DNA of 64,000 nucleotides, from positions 1 through 64,000 of the forward strand of contig DZAY01000009.1 in NCBI GenBank assembly GCA_022729735.1. The letters are read 5' to 3'. The translations under genes and the position numbers were made by a program. This document shows positions 1,999 through 16,522 of the stretch, one piece after another. The notes beneath the pieces are model-generated. The model was not told where the DNA came from. It did no database searches and worked only from the letters and a program-made list of their open reading frames with translations. This stretch comes from Helicobacter cetorum. Its GTDB lineage: Bacteria; Campylobacterota; Campylobacteria; Campylobacterales; DZAY01. Within the stretch, counting starts at the first letter, position 1; every line of letters starts with the position of its first letter.

Positions 1999-2115
1999 AT
2001 TATTGTATTTATTAATAGTATTAATCAAAAGTCATATAAGTATTTATATATCATCAAATATAGTAGTAAATTTAATTTATTTCCAAATATGGCATATTCT
2101 GAAGATATTAATAGT

Positions 2116-2259
2116 TTATAAAAGTGTAAAAATTATGAAAAATTTTACTAAACTATTTTTCAATTCTTCAATTTCTTTGATAGTTAAATCAGTAATAAAA
2201 CTTATATTTTCACCTTTAGAAATTAATTTTTTTGCTATTTCAAATTTTGCTATTTTCAT
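2116..2259 (-). pseudogene. C-terminal remnant of an Rpn/PD-(D/E)XK transposase-like nuclease
   Basis: The minus-strand frame reads KMKIAKFEIAKKLISKGE followed by SFITDLTIKEIEELK. This matches the characteristic C-terminal tail of Rpn-family recombination-promoting nucleases (IA..L...G.....I...TGL...EI..L). Nothing of the catalytic N-terminal domain is present upstream; that DNA now codes for the end of the neighbouring kinase gene, which overlaps by about 20 bases. It is therefore a scrap left by an older mobile element or deletion. Identification rests on one short motif. Confidence 0.45.
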
Positions 2260-3922
2260 TTTTGAGCATAATAATAAATTCTGTTTTGTTTTTACTGCTT
2301 TCAATTAAAAGCTCACCATTTAAATAATGTTCTATCAAAATTTTACATATATAAAGACTAAGTCCGATACCTTTTTTTGAAAATTTAGTAGTAAAATATG
2401 GTTCATAAACTTTATCTTGTATATATTTATCAATTCCACTACCATTATCACAAATTTTAATTAAAATATTATTTTTATATTTTATTAATATAATTTTAAT
2501 CTCTTTATCTATCTTATCTATTTTTAAAAGAGCTTCTTTTGCATTTACCAATATATAGTATATTACTTGTTGTAGCTCATTTAAATAGTTATAGATTTTA
2601 AAATCTTCATCTATTTCTATTGATAAATTAATATTATTCTGAACTAAACTATTACGAAGTAAATCTAATGTATCAAATACTATTTTAGATATATAAAACT
2701 CCTGTTTTTCTCTATCAGCTTTAAAAAAATTACTAAATTTATTTATTATTTCAGATAAATATTTAGTTTCTGTTTCTATTAATGATACAGTTTGATTAAT
2801 ATTTTCATCACTTATACCAATAGCTTTTAATCTTAATTTAATTCCCATACTGCCCATTGAAATAATTGTAAGTGGTTGTTTCCATTGATTAGCTATATTA
2901 ATTAATAACTCATTTATAATATCTGTTTTTGCATTTTTTATAAAAAGTGTTTGAAGCTCTTTTATTTCACATATTTTATTTTGTAATTCTAAATTAATTT
3001 TGGTCAATTGCTGATTTTTATTTGATAACTCTTTTAAAATATCGCTATTTATATTTTGATAACTATCTCGTGATAATTTTGTTTGTTCATAAAGTAGTAA
3101 AATTGTCAAAGCATCACTTAATCTTAAACCAATTTCTTTAAATAGCTCAATTTCATCTTCATTCCAAACTCTTTCATATGAGCATTGGTGCATTCCAAAA
3201 CCCCAATAATTATCAATTTGAGGTTTAATTTTATATACCAATCCACTTTGTGGAGGAATAAAGTCACTGTTTGCTAAATTTTCACTATATGATTTTACAT
3301 CACTTAAGAATGATTTATTAAAGTAATACGGCTTTTGAGCTTCTAATACTGATTTAAAAAATAGATACTGTTTATTAGTCATTTCAATATCTATATTTAA
3401 TGCACAAGCACCAGCATACCTATTTTTTGTTACTTCATAAGGAATTCTAAAACTTTTAACTTCAATGTCTAAAGGATATAGTAAAAAAACTCTATCACAA
3501 TCAAATATTTTTAAAGTTTTTTCAAGCACTTTTTTGATTAATTCTTTAGAATTTTGAGTCTGTTGCATAATTTGTGATATATCTTTAATATTTTCCAAAA
3601 AATCTATCTTTTTTTTGACTAAATTTTTAAACGATATTAATTTATATCCCAATCCATAACTGTTTTCTATAATATCATATGATAATTTTTTTCTTAAGTT
3701 TTTAACTAAATTTCTAATTACATATGTAGAAGTAACATTTGTTTCAGACCATACATAACTAATGATTTCAGTATCTGAAAATAGTTTATTTGGAGAAGAA
3801 ATCAATAATTCTAAAAAACTTGTTTCATTACGAGTTAGTTTTATTTCTCTATTATTATAAGAGACTCTTTTACTTTCAAAAGACCAAAACATATTTGGTG
3901 CTATTTCATATTTTTTATTCAT
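2240..3922 (-). CDS. winged-helix / GAF / histidine-kinase-like protein lacking the phospho-acceptor His
   Basis: This 560-residue soluble protein begins with an OmpR-type winged helix (about 15-95, including SDTEIISYVWSE and IENSYGLGYKLI). A GAF-like sensor follows (about 110-280, ending VWNEDEIELFKEIGLRLSDAL), then a coiled coil (about 285-335), a HisKA-like helix pair, and an HATPase domain (about 435-555) with N-box (YILVNAKEAL), G1 (CDNGSGI) and G2 (KGIGLSLYI) motifs. The H-box reads ANQWKQPL where the adjacent kinase has AHQWRQPL: Asn345, codon AAT at 2890-2888, replaces His. It therefore probably cannot autophosphorylate in the usual way and may be a sensor-controlled DNA-binding protein. 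No membrane segment is seen. It has its own promoter-like motif (3956-3989). Confidence 0.85.
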   Translation of the reverse strand: MNKKYEIAPNMFWSFESKRVSYNNREIKLTRNETSFLELLISSPNKLFSDTEIISYVWSETNVTSTYVIRNLVKNLRKKLSYDIIENSYGLGYKLISFKNLVKKKIDFLENIKDISQIMQQTQNSKELIKKVLEKTLKIFDCDRVFLLYPLDIEVKSFRIPYEVTKNRYAGACALNIDIEMTNKQYLFFKSVLEAQKPYYFNKSFLSDVKSYSENLANSDFIPPQSGLVYKIKPQIDNYWGFGMHQCSYERVWNEDEIELFKEIGLRLSDALTILLLYEQTKLSRDSYQNINSDILKELSNKNQQLTKINLELQNKICEIKELQTLFIKNAKTDIINELLINIANQWKQPLTIISMGSMGIKLRLKAIGISDENINQTVSLIETETKYLSEIINKFSNFFKADREKQEFYISKIVFDTLDLLRNSLVQNNINLSIEIDEDFKIYNYLNELQQVIYYILVNAKEALLKIDKIDKEIKIILIKYKNNILIKICDNGSGIDKYIQDKVYEPYFTTKFSKKGIGLSLYICKILIEHYLNGELLIESSKNKTEFIIMLKNENSKI

Positions 3923-3955: not shown

Positions 3956-3989
3956 ATTATAAATAATAAAAGTATTAAAAAAGTGTAAA
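3956..3989 (-). promoter_or_regulatory. promoter with tandem ACTTTT operator, copy 1 (kinase-like gene)
   Basis: Read on the minus strand, TTTACACTTTTTT is followed by ATACTTTTAT and then TATAAT at 3961-3956. The plus-strand block at 3968-3989 differs at one base of 22 from 7701-7722 and lies at the same 12-base offset from the -10-like hexamer. The two ACTTTT halves are about 10-11 bases apart, the usual spacing of OmpR-type winged-helix sites. It precedes the 3922 start by about 35 bases. Confidence 0.5.
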
Positions 3990-3996
3990 AAAAGTG

Positions 3997-5718
3997 TTAA
4001 ATTGGGATTTCTAATTTAAAAGTAGCTCCAAAATTATTATTAAAAGCACTTAATTTACCATTCATATTTTTTTCTATTAATATTTTTGCCATATAAAGAC
4101 TATTTCCAACACCTTGAGATGGAAATTTAGTGGTGAAATATGGTTCAAAAAGTTTATCAAAAGCTTTTGCTTCAATGCCACCACCATTATCTGATATATT
4201 AATTAATATACTTTTTTCTAAAGTTTCTATCTCTATTGTGATTTTACCTTCTACTATTTTGTGTAGTTCTACACTATTTAAAATAGCATCTTTTGAGTTT
4301 AATACTATATTTAAAATTATGTGTTCAAACTCTCTTTTATAGCCTAAAATCATGATTTTATTTTTATCAATAAAATCCTTATTATCTCTAAATAGCTCAA
4401 TTTCAACACTATTTATTATCACTTCATATTTGATTGAACTTTTATTAAACTCATCAAAAGTTAATATAATAATATTAAATATAGATTCTATTAAATTAAA
4501 CATCTCTTTATCTCTTGATGGCTTAAAAAAGTTACTAAAGTTTGTGATTGTTTGAGATAAAAATTTTACCTCTTGCATAACTATATCTTCCATTTGTATA
4601 ATATCACTCTCTATCAATTCACCATCTTGAAATTTAACACTAATATTTTGGACTTCCAGTCCTATAATATTTAATGGTTGTCTCCATTGATGTGCTAATG
4701 CACTCATCATTTCTGCCATAGATAAAATTTTTGACTGTTGAATTAATATTCTTTCCTGTTCTAACCTTTTTGAAACTTCATTTTTTACTCTATTTTCTAA
4801 CTCTAATTTATATTCGTTCTCTTTTTTTATCTCATTTTTAAGTCTATTTAATATTGGTTTTGAAAGAAGATATATTGCAATAGTCCCAAATATTAAGATT
4901 AAAATAACCAAAATAAGTAATCTAACTATTTGATTATTAATAATGGAGTATAAGGACTCTTTTGAAACTAAAGTTAGAATTGTTAAATTTGTATCTTGTA
5001 TTTGATTTAACTCTATTATAGAGTTTGAAAACTCTTTTATATTTCTATTATCTATTAATATTTCACTTTTTTTTAAATCAATCATGTAGCTATTAATAAC
5101 AGATTTAAAAATAGTATCTTGAAAATATCCTATATATGTTTTTAAATTATCACTATTATAACTATTTATCATATGAATTAATTCAGAACCATCAAAAAAT
5201 ACAACATCATAACCAACCATAGCACCATCTCGTCCAATAATTGGCATATTTACTATCACAGTTATTAGCTCATTTACATTTTCTAATGTTATAAAAACTT
5301 TTTTACTTTTTATAATATTAGGTGATGATATTCCAACATTTGAAACTAATATATCATTAATATTAAATCTCATAATACCTAATATTTTAGGTGATAAATT
5401 AAGAGCATCTGTCAAAATATAATCAATTTCACTTTTAGCTTTTTCTAAAGATATAATCTTATTATTAAACTCAATTAATAGTTCTCTGGCTTTTGTTCTG
5501 CTTGTAATTTGTAAAGCTGTTGATTTTAACTCTTCAAAATATATTTCAATATTTGTAGTTTTTAACTGATTTGTAAAATTGAACTCAACATTTTTATCAT
5601 TTTTTAACTCTAAATATAGAGGTAAAAATATTGTAGTAGCAATTATGATGCTAATTGATAGCATCATATAAATTGCTTTATAATATAAATTTTTTTGTAA
5701 TTTTTCTACTTCTGACAC
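3997..5718 (-). CDS. membrane sensor histidine kinase
   Basis: This is a 573-residue orthodox sensor kinase. A transmembrane helix lies near residues 14-34, a roughly 230-residue periplasmic sensor region follows, and a second helix lies at about 266-290 (LLILVILILIFGTIAIYLL). Then come a coiled coil, a HisKA domain with H-box LAHQWRQPLN (His343, codon at 4692-4690), and an HATPase domain with SDNGGGI and QGVGNSLYMAKIL. The start is GTG, three bases after the chemoreceptor stop, so the two are co-transcribed and probably sense related signals. No cognate response regulator lies directly in this operon; the next gene carries a winged helix but no receiver domain. Confidence 0.9.
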   Translation of the reverse strand: MSEVEKLQKNLYYKAIYMMLSISIIIATTIFLPLYLELKNDKNVEFNFTNQLKTTNIEIYFEELKSTALQITSRTKARELLIEFNNKIISLEKAKSEIDYILTDALNLSPKILGIMRFNINDILVSNVGISSPNIIKSKKVFITLENVNELITVIVNMPIIGRDGAMVGYDVVFFDGSELIHMINSYNSDNLKTYIGYFQDTIFKSVINSYMIDLKKSEILIDNRNIKEFSNSIIELNQIQDTNLTILTLVSKESLYSIINNQIVRLLILVILILIFGTIAIYLLSKPILNRLKNEIKKENEYKLELENRVKNEVSKRLEQERILIQQSKILSMAEMMSALAHQWRQPLNIIGLEVQNISVKFQDGELIESDIIQMEDIVMQEVKFLSQTITNFSNFFKPSRDKEMFNLIESIFNIIILTFDEFNKSSIKYEVIINSVEIELFRDNKDFIDKNKIMILGYKREFEHIILNIVLNSKDAILNSVELHKIVEGKITIEIETLEKSILINISDNGGGIEAKAFDKLFEPYFTTKFPSQGVGNSLYMAKILIEKNMNGKLSAFNNNFGATFKLEIPI

Positions 5719-5721
5719 TTT

Positions 5722-7659
5722 TTAGACTTTAAATTTATTTAAATCATTATCCAAGTCTTTTACACTATGCTCCAACTCTTTTGCAGAGTTATTAATTGAA
5801 CTGATGTTTTCACTATTTTTTGTTGATAATTGATTTAAATTCTCAATTCCTTTTACAATATCAACATTTTTAATTGTAATAATTTTCATACTTGAATTTA
5901 TCCTTTGAGTATTTTCTACTGCAATATTCATAACTTCAACACTTGAATTTAAAACTTTTTGAATATCATCAATTTCACTTGTCAATTCATTAATATTTTT
6001 GGAATTTTCTTGCATATTCTGACTTGCATCACCAATAGATTGAACTACTACATTTATTGTCGAATCTATTTCAATCAAACTTTTTTGAGTTCTCTCTGCC
6101 AACTTCCTAACTTCATCAGCAACAACAGCAAAACCTCTTCCATGCTCTCCAGCTCTTGCTGCCTCAATTGCTGCATTTAGTGCTAATAAATTTGTTTGGT
6201 CTGCTATATCTCTAATGATATTTAATATCTCTTTGATTTGATTAGCTTCATCATTTAATTGCATTAATCTAAGTGCTAAATCTTGCTCTTTTTGTGCATC
6301 ATTATTGATTATTCTTGAAATATTATTGATTTTACTCTCAAGCTCACTTAAACTATAACTTGCCTTTTTAGCATTAGATGCTGTATTTTCAACCTCTTTT
6401 TCACTATTATTTAAAATAGAAGAGTTTTCTTGTAAAGTTGTTGTAAAAACTTTTAAAGTCTCAATCTGTTTATCTATTCTACTATTAACATCTTTTGTAG
6501 TATCTGTTAAACTTATACTAATTCCCATAGCATGAGAAAATGACTCTTTTGCATTTAAAATCAAACTTCTAATTTCTGATAAAAACTTATTTATACCATG
6601 TGCAATTTGTGCTATTTCATCATTTGTTGTTATATTAAGTTTTGTTGTTAAATCAAGATTATTAATTATCTCTTTAATTTTATTAAGAGGTGTAATTATT
6701 ACATAATTTACCAAAACACCTGTAGATAAAGCTTGTAAAAAAATCAAAGCTACAATCAATCCAAAAATAAAATATAACATTTTTTCAGACTTTTTGATAG
6801 ATAAATATGTATAATCCAAACTTTCACCTATCAAATAGATACCTAAAGTTTGACCACTAAAATCTTTAATATTTTCATAAGTATAAATATAGTTTTCGCT
6901 AATTAAATAACCATCTTTTTTTAACTTTTCTAAATCTATAATTTTTGCATCTTCTAAAAACTCTTTTGTATATGTTGGTTGATCAACAATAAAATCTGCT
7001 ACTTTTTGACTCTCTTCAACCCATTTTGCAAGTTGAGCATACTTTTTATCCATCAAAAACAGAATTTCTTTATTAGCAGTTTTAAAATTTTGATAAATTG
7101 AGTCAAGTTTATCTATAAATTCAATTGAACCAATATATTCACCATCTCTTATAATTGGTGCAACACCTCTTAATGTAATTCCAATTTGTCCAAGCTCTAT
7201 TGCAGAAAGTGGCTTAAGAGAACTTTTTACCTCTTTTATTGTCATTCTAAAAGCACTAATATCATCACCAAACTTATCAGGTTTCCAATCTCTCAAAAAA
7301 GATTTAATATCTTTTGTATGAATTTGAATTTTTGGGTCTTTATAACTTGTATAACTTTGAAAACCACTCTTAATATCTTTTAAAATCTTCAAAGACTCTA
7401 GCCTATTTTCACTATAAAGAGTATCAACAATAGCTCTGTTTTTACTCATACTCATAGCATTTATAAGTGCCAACTCATTTTTGATAGCAAGTCGCTCTTT
7501 TAAAAGAGTTTTCAAATCAGCTACACTCTGATTAATCTGCTCACTTTTTAAATTGTTTAATGTAAAATTTACATAAACCAAAGGAATAATTATCAATATT
7601 AATCCCAAAATAACCATTGGAAAAAGCAACTTCTTTTTGATAGAGTTAAATTTACTCAT
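5722..7659 (-). CDS. methyl-accepting chemotaxis protein with periplasmic Cache-like sensor
   Basis: The chemoreceptor signals ligand state to CheA/CheW at the inner membrane. TM1 lies near residues 10-30, followed by a long periplasmic sensor of double-Cache type (about 35-285), TM2 ([18 protein letters not shown] and following), a HAMP-like segment ([15 protein letters not shown]), and the cytoplasmic coiled coil. The highly conserved hairpin tip reads [20 protein letters not shown] followed by [20 protein letters not shown]. The ATG at 7659 is chosen over an in-frame GTG at 7668 because AAAGG sits eight bases before the ATG and overlaps the GTG. It heads an operon with the kinase downstream. 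Confidence 0.95.
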
Positions 7660-7688
7660 TTTATACACCTTTAAATATAAGTTGCACT

Positions 7689-7722
7689 ATTATAGTTTAT
7701 AAAAGTATCAAAAAAGTGTAAA
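7689..7722 (-). promoter_or_regulatory. promoter with tandem ACTTTT operator, copy 2 (chemoreceptor operon)
   Basis: On the minus strand TTTACACTTTTTT, GATACTTTTATAAAC and TATAAT (7694-7689) follow one another about 30 bases upstream of the 7659 start. The 22-bp block at 7701-7722 matches 3968-3989 with one difference and at the same offset from TATAAT. A shortened relative lies at 2111-2130, sharing the 15-mer ATAGTTTATAAAAGT with 7692-7706. A shared regulator of both transcripts is inferred. Confidence 0.5.
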
Positions 7723-7832: not shown

Positions 7833-8288
7833 ATGTTTAATATTGTGTTAGTTGAGCCACAAATACCACCAAATACAGGCACTATTGGAAGATTGTGTGT
7901 AGCTACAAACTCAGCTCTACATTTAGTAAAGCCTTTGGGATTTTCTATTGATGACAAAAGTCTTAAAAGAGCAGGTCTTGATTATTGGGAATTTTTAGAT
8001 TTAAGAATTTATGAAAATTTAGATGAGTTTTTAGAAAAAAATAGAGTTAATGAACGACACTTTTTTGCAACAACAAAAAGTGATAAATATTACTTTAAAG
8101 TCAAATTACAAAAAGGTGATTTTATCTATTTTGGAAGAGAAGATGGTGGATTGCCAGAGAAGCTAATGGAAAAAATGCCAGAAAATAAGATTACAATTCC
8201 AATGTTTAGTGAAAAGATTAGAAGTATAAATTTAGCAACAGCAGTATCAATTATTCTTTATGATGGAATTAGAGTTAATTTAGAGTAG
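7833..8288 (+). CDS. trmL: tRNA (cytidine/uridine-34 2'-O)-methyltransferase
   Basis: TrmL is a small SPOUT-fold methyltransferase that methylates the ribose of the wobble nucleotide in certain tRNA-Leu species, using S-adenosylmethionine. The 151-residue length is typical. Family motifs are visible: VEPQIPPNTGTIGRLC at the N-terminus, FGREDGGLPE in the middle, and IPM...IRSINLATAVSIILYDG forming the knotted cofactor site. An AAGGTG ribosome site precedes ATG 7833. Its 3' end overlaps the convergent HDOD gene by 14 bases. Confidence 0.95.
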   Translation: MFNIVLVEPQIPPNTGTIGRLCVATNSALHLVKPLGFSIDDKSLKRAGLDYWEFLDLRIYENLDEFLEKNRVNERHFFATTKSDKYYFKVKLQKGDFIYFGREDGGLPEKLMEKMPENKITIPMFSEKIRSINLATAVSIILYDGIRVNLE

Positions 8289-9081
8289 TTTTTTTGAGAA
8301 ACTCTTTTAACACACTCTTAAATAGTTCAACATCAAATCCATATAGTTTGCATAGTTCCAAAGCACTTTCAATTCCATTTTCATCTATTTTTGAGTTAAG
8401 ACTAATTAATTTTAATATTAATTTCACTGCTGAAAGCTCTTTTGTGATAAAACAGCTACAAACTTCATCTTTATAATCAATTTGATTTATAATATTAATT
8501 AGTGATTTATCAAACTTCCACTGCTTAAATATAGAACCACTTAACTCATAGCTACTATATCCCAAAAGCTCTCGTTCAACATCACAAAATGCAATAGTTT
8601 CTGACAAATCCATAAATCTGTTTGTAATCCCTTTTTTTTCAATCTCTTGAGCAATTACGATTTTACCAATCTCACATAAAAATAGTGCTTGTGATATTAA
8701 ATCTGTCATATTTTTATCTATTTTACTATACCATCTATTTGCAAATAGACTTCTTGAAATAGCTCCATTTATAAATTGTTCTTCTGTAATTTTGTAAATA
8801 TTTAGCTTTATTTTAAAACTACTTTTAATAACAGACGAGACAACAAATCCAAATATTGTTGAAAGTCCAAACAGAGCAACTGCTGTATTTATATTTGTAA
8901 TTTCTTGACTATGTCCATAAATTGGAGAGTTTGCATATCTTAATATATTTGCCATAAGTAGTGGGTCTCGCTCTATGATTTTAGATACATCAAAGAGAGA
9001 ACTATTTGGATTTGCACAAACTTGCTGAATCTCTACAACCGTGCCACTTAATGGTGGTAAAACAATATTTTGTATATTCAT
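8275..9081 (-). CDS. HDOD-domain signalling protein
   Basis: This 268-residue protein is a single HDOD domain, an HD-like fold that generally lacks phosphodiesterase residues and is found in signalling proteins. Recognisable segments are LPPLSGTVVEIQQVCANPNS, IIERDPLLMANILRYANSP and INTAVALFGLSTIFGFVVS. Its ATG overlaps the stop of the response regulator (TAATG), so translation is coupled and it probably acts in or downstream of that two-component pathway. No output activity can be read from the sequence. Confidence 0.88.
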   Translation of the reverse strand: MNIQNIVLPPLSGTVVEIQQVCANPNSSLFDVSKIIERDPLLMANILRYANSPIYGHSQEITNINTAVALFGLSTIFGFVVSSVIKSSFKIKLNIYKITEEQFINGAISRSLFANRWYSKIDKNMTDLISQALFLCEIGKIVIAQEIEKKGITNRFMDLSETIAFCDVERELLGYSSYELSGSIFKQWKFDKSLINIINQIDYKDEVCSCFITKELSAVKLILKLISLNSKIDENGIESALELCKLYGFDVELFKSVLKEFLKKTTLN

Positions 9082-9752
9082 TATCCTGCTCTATAACTTT
9101 TTAGTGTATAGCCAAATCCTCTAACAGTTTCAATTACATCATCTTTTAATTTACATCTAAGTCGATTAATAAGAGAACGAACAGTGGAGTTTGACCTATC
9201 ATCAAAATTGTAAATATACTCTAAAATCATATCTTCAGTAATTATACTTCCAAAGTTTTTTATAAAGAGAGATATTAACATATATTCTCTTTTTGAAAGC
9301 TTCTCTTCACTATCTCTGTATAAAAGCTTTCGACTTTTTGAGTCAAAATTGTAATTCTCTGAAATTTTTATAATGTTTCTATTTACATCTACCTTTCTAT
9401 TTTCAAGTAGCTTATCCATTCTAATTTTCAGCTCTCTCAAATTAAAAGGTTTTTTAAGATACTCATTGCAACCTAAATTATAAGCTTTTTCAACACTATT
9501 TATATCTACAAAAGCAGTTATCATAATAACAATTGCAACTGGGTCATTTTTTTTGATATTTTTTAATACATTAAATCCATCAATAATTGGAGTATTAATA
9601 TCCAATATATATAAATCAAACCTTTTATTTTTTATGGCAAAAGTTGCACTTTCTCCATCTTCAAATCCAAAAACTGTATGTCCTAAACTCTCTAAATATG
9701 TTTTGATAGATTTTAGTAGCATATACTCATCTTCTAAAAGTAATATATTCAT
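9081..9752 (-). CDS. OmpR-family response regulator
   Basis: Residues 1-120 are a receiver domain with the acidic pocket LLLEDE, phospho-acceptor Asp51 in YILDINTPIIDG, a Thr-type switch residue in VIMITAF, and Lys in YLKKPFN. Residues about 130-220 form a winged-helix DNA-binding domain (SKREYMLISLFIKN, STVRSLINRLRCKL, VRGFGYTL). The ATG at 9752 has GAGGTTGG just upstream, so it is preferred over the start 19 codons earlier. It lies between a receiver-kinase and an HDOD gene; the kinase is the likely partner. Confidence 0.93.
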   Translation of the reverse strand: MNILLLEDEYMLLKSIKTYLESLGHTVFGFEDGESATFAIKNKRFDLYILDINTPIIDGFNVLKNIKKNDPVAIVIMITAFVDINSVEKAYNLGCNEYLKKPFNLRELKIRMDKLLENRKVDVNRNIIKISENYNFDSKSRKLLYRDSEEKLSKREYMLISLFIKNFGSIITEDMILEYIYNFDDRSNSTVRSLINRLRCKLKDDVIETVRGFGYTLKSYRAG

Positions 9753-9809
9753 AATCCAACCTCTATAATAATTTAGAATATTCCGAATTTTATAGTTTAT
9801 ATGTTGCAT

Positions 9810-10922
9810 TTATGTTCGATTTTTGAATAAATAACTAAAAATATTTTCACCCTTTGGAGTTGATTTAAAATCTATATCTATTCCATACTCATAGCATATC
9901 TCTTTTACGATATTAAGTCCTATACCATAACCTCCACGACTGCTATCTTCTCTATAAAATCTTTCAAAAATAGCATCTTTGTCTTTGATTGGTTGTCCAA
10001 AATTTTTAAAACTAAGCTTATAACCATCTTCAACTAAATTAAGTTTAATAGTTATTACACTATTTCGATTTGAGTATTTAATTGCATTTGATATGTTATT
10101 ATGGATTAATCTTTGGAGTTTTATATCTGAAAATTCAATATATACACCCTTTTTCAAATTTGTTTTAAAGTTTAATTTTAGACTATTTGCAATTGCTATT
10201 GAGTTGAAATAGTCAATACTATTTATAACAAACTCTAATAAATCAATTTTAGAATTTTTATATTCTATTTTATCTTTTTTGATTAAATAGTGCATATCTT
10301 CATAAGTATTTTTCAAAATCATACAAGCAGCTTCTATTTGTGTAAGAAATTCATTACTGCCTTGTTCTATTTTGATTAAATCTATATTTGTAACAATTAT
10401 ACTAAGAGGTGTATTTATTTCATGAATAGAATCTTTTATAAATTTGTCTTGTTGAGCTAACAGTAAATTTGCATAATCTTTTGCTTTTTTTAACTCTAAA
10501 CCTTCTTGACATCTTTGTAATACTTTATATAATATTTTATATAAAGTATCAAGTTTAATTGGCTTTAACAATAAATTTTCAACTCCAAGCTCTAAAGCAT
10601 CCAAAAAACACTCTTTTGTATTTTTGTCTGTAATTAATACCATTTTTTGATTTAAATCTATCGCTTTTATAGATTTTGCAACTTCCAAACCATGCATGCA
10701 ATCAATATCAATAATTACAATATCAATCCGTTTTTTATTTCTAAAATAGTAATTTGTGTAACATTTTAGAGCTTCATCTAAACTATTAGCCACATAAAAC
10801 TCTCTAAAAAGCTCATTTAAGAGCAACTCAATTTGATTTAGCTCACAACTATTATATATAAAAAGAGAGCTAAAATCTCTACCAAATAGTTTCAAATCCT
10901 CAAATATTTCAATTGTATTCAT
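9810..10922 (-). CDS. soluble hybrid receiver-histidine kinase
   Basis: This 370-residue protein has no membrane helix. The N-terminal half is a receiver-like domain (IDIVIIDIDCMHGLEVA with Asp72; Lys in LLLKPIKLD). A HisKA domain follows (FIKDSIHEINTPLSIIV, His167), then an HATPase domain (HNNISNAIKYSN, FERFYREDSSRGGYGIGL). Placing a receiver in front of the kinase core suggests it receives phosphoryl or protein signals from another system and passes them to the OmpR regulator 57 bases downstream. The start has GGTGG upstream. Confidence 0.9.
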   Translation of the reverse strand: MNTIEIFEDLKLFGRDFSSLFIYNSCELNQIELLLNELFREFYVANSLDEALKCYTNYYFRNKKRIDIVIIDIDCMHGLEVAKSIKAIDLNQKMVLITDKNTKECFLDALELGVENLLLKPIKLDTLYKILYKVLQRCQEGLELKKAKDYANLLLAQQDKFIKDSIHEINTPLSIIVTNIDLIKIEQGSNEFLTQIEAACMILKNTYEDMHYLIKKDKIEYKNSKIDLLEFVINSIDYFNSIAIANSLKLNFKTNLKKGVYIEFSDIKLQRLIHNNISNAIKYSNRNSVITIKLNLVEDGYKLSFKNFGQPIKDKDAIFERFYREDSSRGGYGIGLNIVKEICYEYGIDIDFKSTPKGENIFSYLFKNRT

Positions 10923-15091: not shown

Positions 15092-16522
15092 TTGAATAGT
15101 ATAGTTGCAGCAATTGATATTGGTTCTACAAAAATTTGTGCAATCATTGCTGAAAGAAGAGATGGTAATTTACATATTATTGGCTCTGGTGCTTCAAAAG
15201 CTCAAGGGCTAAAAAAGGGTGTTGTTACAAATATTGAGTTAGCATCAAAAGCAATAAAGAGTGCAATTAATGATGCTAAAAGAGTTGCAGGAACAGAATT
15301 TAAAAGTGCCATTGTTTCTATATCTGGAGCATATACAAAAAGTGTAAATAGCTCTGGAATAGTAAATATTCCAAATAATGAAATAGGTTTAAAAGAGATT
15401 AATAGAGTAATGCAAACTGCAATTTATAATGCAAACATTTTAAATGAGTACCAAATATTGCATGTATTGCCTTACAACTTTAAAGTTGATGAACAAGATT
15501 TTATTGATGACCCACATGGAATGAATGGCTCAAGATTAGAAGTTGCTACACATATCATAACAGTTCAAAAATATAGTTTGAATAATTTACAAAAAGCTAT
15601 TAAAACTGCTGGAATTGAAATAGATAGCATTGTATTAGCTGGGTATGCTTCAGCAATATCAGTTATGAAAGATGATGAACGAAGTGCTGGAGTTGCTGTT
15701 GTTGATATGGGTGGTTCAACTTGTAATTTAGTAGTTCATTATGGTAATTCAATCAGATATAATGACTTTATTGGAGTTGGTTCAAACCATATTACAAGTG
15801 ATTTATCGATTGTGCTTCATACACCACTTGGAGCAGCTGAAAAACTGAAATTAAGATATGCTTCTTTAATTGAAACTAAAGATAGTGAAGATGAAATAAT
15901 AGAGTTACCTATTAGTGGCGAAGATAATAAGTATCAAGAAGTATCGTCTAAAATAGTTTATAATGTGTTGTATGAAAGAGTTAGTGAAATAGTAGCTCTT
16001 TTAGCAAAATCAATAGATGATAGTAGATTGAAAGGTCAGCTTGGTGGTGGTATTATACTAACTGGTGGTATGAGTAATCTTAGTGGATTGAGGGAATTTG
16101 TAAGTGAAAGTTTGGGTGGAATGCCAGTTAGAGCAGCTAAACCAAAAGAGATAGATGGACTATTTGATTATTTAAGAGACCCATCATTTTCAACAGCAAT
16201 AGGATTAATTCTATATGCAAATGGTGGTTTTACAAATTATGAGATAGATTCAAATAGAAAGTTGAGACATAAAAATGAGTTTGGAGAAGATTTGAAAATT
16301 GTTCCATCTACTAATAGTGTAGAAAACATTACAATCGCATCTCCAACAGATAATAATGGTGCAAACAGTAGTGTTCCAAATAGTATTACTAATTCTACAA
16401 TTAAGTTGGAAACTATTAAAGATGAAAAAAGAGAACCTCAATCAATAAAAATTGATACCAAAAAGAATAAAGACAACTCTCCAGTATCTAAATTTGTTAG
16501 ATGGATAACACAATTGTTTTAA
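15092..16522 (+). CDS. ftsA: cell division protein FtsA
   Basis: FtsA is the actin-like ATPase that tethers FtsZ filaments to the membrane and recruits later divisome proteins. The nucleotide-binding motifs are clear: VAAIDIGSTKICAIIAE (phosphate 1), VAVVDMGGSTCNLVV (phosphate 2) and GGIILTGGMSNLSGL (adenosine). The SHS2 insertion lies between residues about 80 and 165. The C-terminal SKFVRWITQLF is an amphipathic membrane-targeting helix after a low-complexity linker. At 476 residues it is slightly longer than the common 420. Start is TTG 15092 after a GAGGGA ribosome site. Confidence 0.97.
   Translation: MNSIVAAIDIGSTKICAIIAERRDGNLHIIGSGASKAQGLKKGVVTNIELASKAIKSAINDAKRVAGTEFKSAIVSISGAYTKSVNSSGIVNIPNNEIGLKEINRVMQTAIYNANILNEYQILHVLPYNFKVDEQDFIDDPHGMNGSRLEVATHIITVQKYSLNNLQKAIKTAGIEIDSIVLAGYASAISVMKDDERSAGVAVVDMGGSTCNLVVHYGNSIRYNDFIGVGSNHITSDLSIVLHTPLGAAEKLKLRYASLIETKDSEDEIIELPISGEDNKYQEVSSKIVYNVLYERVSEIVALLAKSIDDSRLKGQLGGGIILTGGMSNLSGLREFVSESLGGMPVRAAKPKEIDGLFDYLRDPSFSTAIGLILYANGGFTNYEIDSNRKLRHKNEFGEDLKIVPSTNSVENITIASPTDNNGANSSVPNSITNSTIKLETIKDEKREPQSIKIDTKKNKDNSPVSKFVRWITQLF

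Follow-up and report, generated by a model that had tools for sequence, protein, structure and literature searches.

A winged-helix protein fused to a histidine kinase-like core without the phospho-acceptor histidine, and tandem 11-bp repeats at its promoter, in Helicobacter cetorum

The locus and its genes

The window analysed here is a stretch of 64,000 nt from a Helicobacter cetorum assembly (GCA_022729735.1, contig DZAY01000009.1, positions 1 to 64,000 of the forward strand). The source is a draft genome of 2.5 Mb in 66 contigs, with a contamination estimate of 7.4%. Three genes on the reverse strand are of interest. The first encodes a methyl-accepting chemotaxis protein (MCP; 5722-7668) in which Pfam finds dCache_3, HAMP and MCPsignal domains; its listed start codon is a GTG, and an ATG at 7659 behind AGG is the more likely start. 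The second (3997-5718) encodes a membrane histidine kinase (HK), recognized from its open reading frame, Pfam and hydropathy, with an intact H-box, AHQWRQPL. Because these two genes are 3 nt apart on the same strand, they probably form an operon. The third begins 74 nt past the HK on the same strand (2240-3922) and encodes a protein of 560 residues in which a winged helix is followed by a GAF-like region, a coiled coil and an HK-like core. We refer to it below as the fusion protein.

No response regulator gene lies beside the intact HK in this cluster of three genes. No close relative of the HK's sensor region was found in 248 genomes, and the only match elsewhere is to the last 90 residues of this region. 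A second signalling cluster of near-contiguous genes is found at 8275-10922 (reverse strand), with an HK carrying an N-terminal receiver-like domain, an OmpR-type response regulator and an HDOD protein. On the other side, a 48-residue frame at 2116-2262 (reverse strand; MKIAKFEIAKKLISKGENISFITDLTIKEIEELKNSL) overlaps the end of the fusion gene. It has no Pfam match; we take it to resemble the C-terminal end of transposase-like proteins of the Rpn/PD-(D/E)XK kind, and it is possibly a mobile-element relic. Further along the reverse strand, the frames at 1181-1876 and 806-1111 look like one surface protein gene split by a frameshift (806-1111 matches Fib_succ_major at 7.7e-7, below the cut-off), and 3-794 encodes a serine-rich, low-complexity and probably secreted protein that runs off the contig end.

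Domain architecture and the missing phospho-acceptor

An initial annotation of this DNA described the fusion protein as an N-terminal DNA-binding domain, a GAF sensor and a kinase core with ATP-binding boxes, and the first and last of these hold up well. Residues 25-95 (3638-3850, reverse strand) match Trans_reg_C with an E-value of 1.2e-14 and 54.6 bits, compared to a Pfam cut-off of 26.2 and to 55.8 bits for the true response regulator at 9081-9809. The PDB matches of this domain are ArlR, CovR and CssR, and by these comparisons it appears to be an intact winged helix of the OmpR/PhoB type. It begins at residue 25, and Pfam gives no Response_reg match in the protein, so that no receiver domain is seen. 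The CA (HATPase_c) domain is also well above its Pfam cut-off (residues 449-555; 2258-2578, reverse strand; 6.8e-13, 49.5 bits). Between the two, DHp-like helices (residues 339-404; 2711-2908, reverse strand) match HisKA at an E-value of 0.022, below the cut-off, and are preceded by a putative coiled-coil linker suggested by the sequence NSDILKELSNKNQQLTKINLELQNKICEIKELQ (residues 286-331; 2930-3067, reverse strand). The maximum hydropathy in a 19-residue window is 1.14, compared to 3.2 in the membrane HK, which predicts a chain with no transmembrane segment.

The GAF sensor fared less well. The region in question (residues 97-285; 3068-3634, reverse strand) is divergent, and its best Pfam GAF score is 12.1 bits with an E-value of 0.29, so that the domain is not called. 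It does match, weakly and in colinear order at its N- and C-terminal parts, four GAF structures of the phytochrome/cyanobacteriochrome type, the best being 6uv8 at 1.4e-4, and it has no relatives at an E-value of 1e-6 in 299 genomes. AlphaFold2 models from the single sequence were too poor for a fold search, both for the full-length protein (pLDDT 33) and for this region (pLDDT 36); in these low-confidence models, the order of secondary-structure elements agrees with a GAF domain, and the linker residues form a helix. We regard the GAF identity of the region as weakly suggested. Bilin-binding GAF domains carry a Cys in the segment equivalent to residues 174-246, and because there is no Cys between these residues here, a bilin sensor is unlikely.

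In the DHp-like helices, the position of the phospho-acceptor His is occupied by Asn345, encoded by AAT at 2888-2890 (reverse strand) within NIANQWKQPL. The neighbouring HK keeps its His in the corresponding segment, MSALAHQWRQPLN (ALAHQWRQPL). Frame, codon and the comparison with the neighbour are all as first annotated. The fusion protein contains His at residues 245 and 532 only, and none in the DHp helices. Alignment to the H-box was possible for thirty HK cores of the same genome (the fusion protein, the neighbouring HK and 28 further relatives). His occupies the position in 28 of the thirty and Arg in one, and the fusion protein alone has Asn. In other genomes, each of the five best matches likewise carries His. 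Because these distant homologues keep His, Asn345 is a derived state. When 399 genomes of the order were searched for the NQWxQP codon pattern, seven matches were obtained, and only the one in the fusion gene was in an HK frame. The other six were rejected as chance matches in short out-of-frame stretches, one of them across an rpoD-like gene. In H-boxes of this type, Asn is not a common substitute. The H-box phospho-acceptor His that marks an active autokinase is absent, and with an HK fold in which this residue is replaced, the fusion protein would be classed by its sequence as a histidine pseudokinase.

The same genome contains a second HK without the acceptor His (L021, C58:27690-28475). 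This 408-residue kinase adjoins an amtB-like ammonium transporter gene and has IARQWKQPL, with a CGT codon one base from CAT; apart from the H-box, its core almost always has the consensus residue at the conserved positions that we tabulated. With 87 HATPase_c matches, the genome has very many histidine kinases for its 2.5 Mb, and several of the matches contain in-frame stops or are split (C24 and C41, for example).

The ATP site of the fusion protein was compared with 33 related cores. N460, D492, G496, G518 and G520 are retained, F506 is changed to Tyr and G522 to Ser, and the N, G1, F and G2 boxes can all be recognized in the CA domain; ATP binding is plausible on this basis, although not certain. 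Elsewhere the core is strongly diverged: it deviates at 15 of the 42 positions on which 80% or more of the relatives agree, more than any other core, and its branch in a tree of the 34 cores is among the longest, at 1.97 versus a median of 0.99. This divergence bears on the earlier description of the missing His as the result of a one-base change. The description holds for the codon but gives the wrong impression of the protein, as the core differs from each of its relatives at more than 60% of residues. The divergence also makes it very improbable that the His codon was misread or misassembled and that the true product is a winged-helix–GAF–HK protein with His. AAT and CAT are indeed one base apart and the genome is a draft, but the whole core is unusually diverged, and a DNA-binding HK of this kind would be out of the ordinary even if it had His.

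No full-length homologue of the fusion protein was found in 399 genomes of the order, considering the best few candidates per genome; in this sample, genus and family are represented by the source genome alone. The best matches cover the HK half only, at 31-34% identity, and the best matches of the winged helix are ordinary open frames of ~230-280 residues, the size of a response regulator. None of 72,556 plasmid records has a match covering 80% of the protein. Matches on plasmids include Arcobacter, Sulfurimonas and Sulfurovum; those from Arcobacter were considered as possible fusions and rejected, because there the aligner had bridged HK genes and distinct response regulator genes. A search of genome contigs for related loci returned a distant HATPase match only. 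The combination of winged helix, GAF-like region and HK core is apparently a singleton in a divergent lineage, and the plasmid matches suggest that this lineage belongs to the Campylobacterota.

A singleton with a long branch and the most deviations at conserved positions could be a functionless chimera, decaying or recently formed, in which a winged helix became joined to an HK that drifts after loss of its acceptor. We think this rather improbable, if less so than a base error. The frame of 560 codons is intact, with a GC content by codon position (0.31/0.23/0.12) like that of the neighbouring genes; the key ATP-site residues and the winged helix are preserved while other positions vary; and the gene is preceded by its own elaborate promoter.

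Tandem 11-bp repeats as putative operators

Upstream of the fusion gene, in the 74-nt gap and overlapping the stop codon of the neighbouring HK, are three tandem 11-bp direct repeats, TTAACACTTTT TTTACACTTTT TTAATACTTTT (3968-4000, reverse strand; read from 4000 to 3968), which can be written TTaACACTTTT TTTACACTTTT TTaATACTTTT. After the array and a 6-nt spacer, ATTATT, comes a -10-like TATAAT (3956-3961, reverse strand). Two tandem repeats of the same kind, TTTACACTTTT TTGATACTTTT, are found upstream of the MCP-HK operon (7701-7722, reverse strand), where the spacing is again 6 nt (ATAAAC) and is followed by TATAAT (7689-7694, reverse strand). A degenerate third array, TTTTCATAATT TTTACACTTTT ATAAAC TATTAA (2108-2141, reverse strand), lies between the 3' end of the fusion gene and the gene start at 1876. 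The repeats at the fusion-gene and MCP-HK promoters are a new observation of this analysis.

Within the window, TTWACACTTTT occurs five times, compared to 0.65 expected. The genome-wide statistics come from pattern searches. The exact tandem pattern is present only at the fusion-gene and MCP-HK promoters; allowing one mismatch adds only an overlapping repeat of the same array, and the other 19 matches all have two mismatches, a background level given the 12 matches of a reversed control. A looser tandem pattern has three matches at this locus, of which two overlap, and one further match within a coding sequence (C5). The tandem form is intergenic nowhere else in the 2.5-Mb genome. Three candidates for further sites were rejected: the copy of TTTACACTTTT at 15338 and the C5 match are inside coding regions, and a match with a -10-like element on C57 is missing the first repeat.

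A PHO box consists of two 11-nt direct repeats, each with seven conserved and four less conserved nucleotides (PMC4415409), and DNA-binding domains of the OmpR/PhoB family can bind head-to-tail on such repeats (PMC4117788). The 7+4 layout seen here has the same anatomy, and by this analogy we interpret the arrays as putative operators. An ordinary sigma-70 -35 box was considered and rejected, as TTTACA and TTGATA at the MCP promoter are ~22 nt and ~11 nt, respectively, from TATAAT. The repeat array presumably occupies the position of the -35 box instead, as in PhoB-dependent promoters.

Because the motif is restricted to this locus, it points to a locus-specific protein of the OmpR type. The obvious candidate is the fusion protein, and the repeats at its own and the neighbouring promoter strengthen the case that it acts locally on DNA. 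Another OmpR-type regulator might bind them, leaving the fusion gene as one of its targets. The nearest such protein is the response regulator at 9081-9809, which has a full receiver and a winged helix of equal Pfam score, recognizably similar to that of the fusion protein, and is encoded 1.4 kb from the MCP promoter. However, its own operon promoter, upstream of 10922, has no such repeat. Repeats are present to either side of the fusion gene, and the tandem form is found between genes nowhere else. We consider this assignment unlikely and retain the fusion protein as the preferred binder.

A possible one-component regulator

HK cores are understood as phosphate donors, and without its acceptor the core of the fusion protein would no longer be coupled to phosphotransfer. 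The architecture, with a DNA-binding domain and HK-like core in a soluble chain, no receiver and no acceptor His, fits a one-component regulator. The interpretation that we favour, and give about an even chance, is a local, cytoplasmic, autoregulating one-component regulator built from two-component parts, in which the pseudokinase core acts as a dimeriser and as a switch responding to nucleotide or ligand. The DHp helices and coiled coil most likely dimerise the protein. The retained GHKL ATP site, together with the GAF-like region, would then set the geometry of the dimer and, through it, whether the pair of winged helices could dock head-to-tail on tandem 11-bp repeats. Likely targets would be its own promoter (3968-4000), the MCP-HK promoter (7701-7722) and perhaps the array at 2108-2141. 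The outcome would be to couple expression of the chemoreceptor and sensor kinase to a cytoplasmic signal or to the nucleotide state. A more specific proposal, which we hold more tentatively, is that a two-component pathway has collapsed into one chain, with a phospho-dead HK core that controls the OmpR-type DNA-binding domain allosterically via ATP/ADP binding and uses PHO-box-like operators to act on no genes other than its own chemoreceptor/kinase cluster. Repeat binding by the fusion protein, dimerisation, control by ATP/ADP or a ligand, and activation rather than repression are what we infer from the features above. The initial annotation had likewise suggested a one-component transcription factor controlled by ATP and ligand; the anatomy and the operator-like repeats agree with the first part of that suggestion, but the GAF match is weak, and for ATP control the pointer is the retained motifs.

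The layout of the putative operators, tandem 11-bp 7+4 repeats just upstream of the -10 element, and the winged helix are both as in OmpR/PhoB-family response regulators; unlike these, the fusion protein lacks a receiver, and its winged helix is N-terminal and attached to an HK core. One-component regulators of the CadC/ToxR type likewise place an OmpR-type winged helix at the N-terminus, in direct fusion with a sensor, but they are membrane-anchored and have no GHKL core. For an HK-like core that signals through its nucleotide state, the best precedent is NifL, an ADP sensor in nitrogen fixation whose GHKL nucleotide site carries the signal (reviewed in PMC12540587) and whose sensor domain lies in front, as here. 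NifL differs in having PAS domains and in controlling a separate activator, NifA, whereas the fusion protein has its DNA-binding domain in the same chain; its score against the NifL family model TIGR02938 is 36.4 bits, far from the cut-off of 242.

HK cores that lack the acceptor His have precedents in DivL and RdmS. DivL, like other histidine pseudokinases, has an HK fold with the His replaced (by Tyr550); it binds ATP poorly and reads a response regulator (PMC4211667) and, unlike the fusion protein, has no DNA-binding domain. RdmS and MsmS of Methanosarcina (MA_type 2 kinases) have an HK-like core that binds and hydrolyses ATP without an H-box, and the tested member, RdmS, has no autokinase activity (PMC11784639); they are archaeal, the entire H-box is missing, and they are not reported to carry a fused DNA-binding domain.

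DivL also illustrates another role for the core, which might act mainly as a modulator that pairs with an active HK, such as the intact one next to it, or with a response regulator, the winged helix tethering the complex to DNA or being secondary. DivL senses DivK~P through its HK fold (PMC4211667), and the native HKs ChrS and HrrS heterodimerise, a pseudokinase variant of ChrS altering signalling (PMC9491836). In favour of such a role, the neighbouring HK is intact, and no response regulator is encoded next to it in the cluster. This HK does not group with the fusion protein in the tree of 34 cores, however, so that compatibility of their DHp domains is not evident, and a modulating role would not account for an intact winged helix or for operator repeats at the locus. 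To us this role seems as unlikely as binding of the repeats by a different regulator.

The fusion protein would offer a compact test of whether ATP-driven conformational changes in an HK core can by themselves switch a transcription factor, given a naturally phospho-dead core in cis with a winged helix and a very small, defined set of candidate operators. It would further illustrate the collapse of a two-component system into a one-component regulator.
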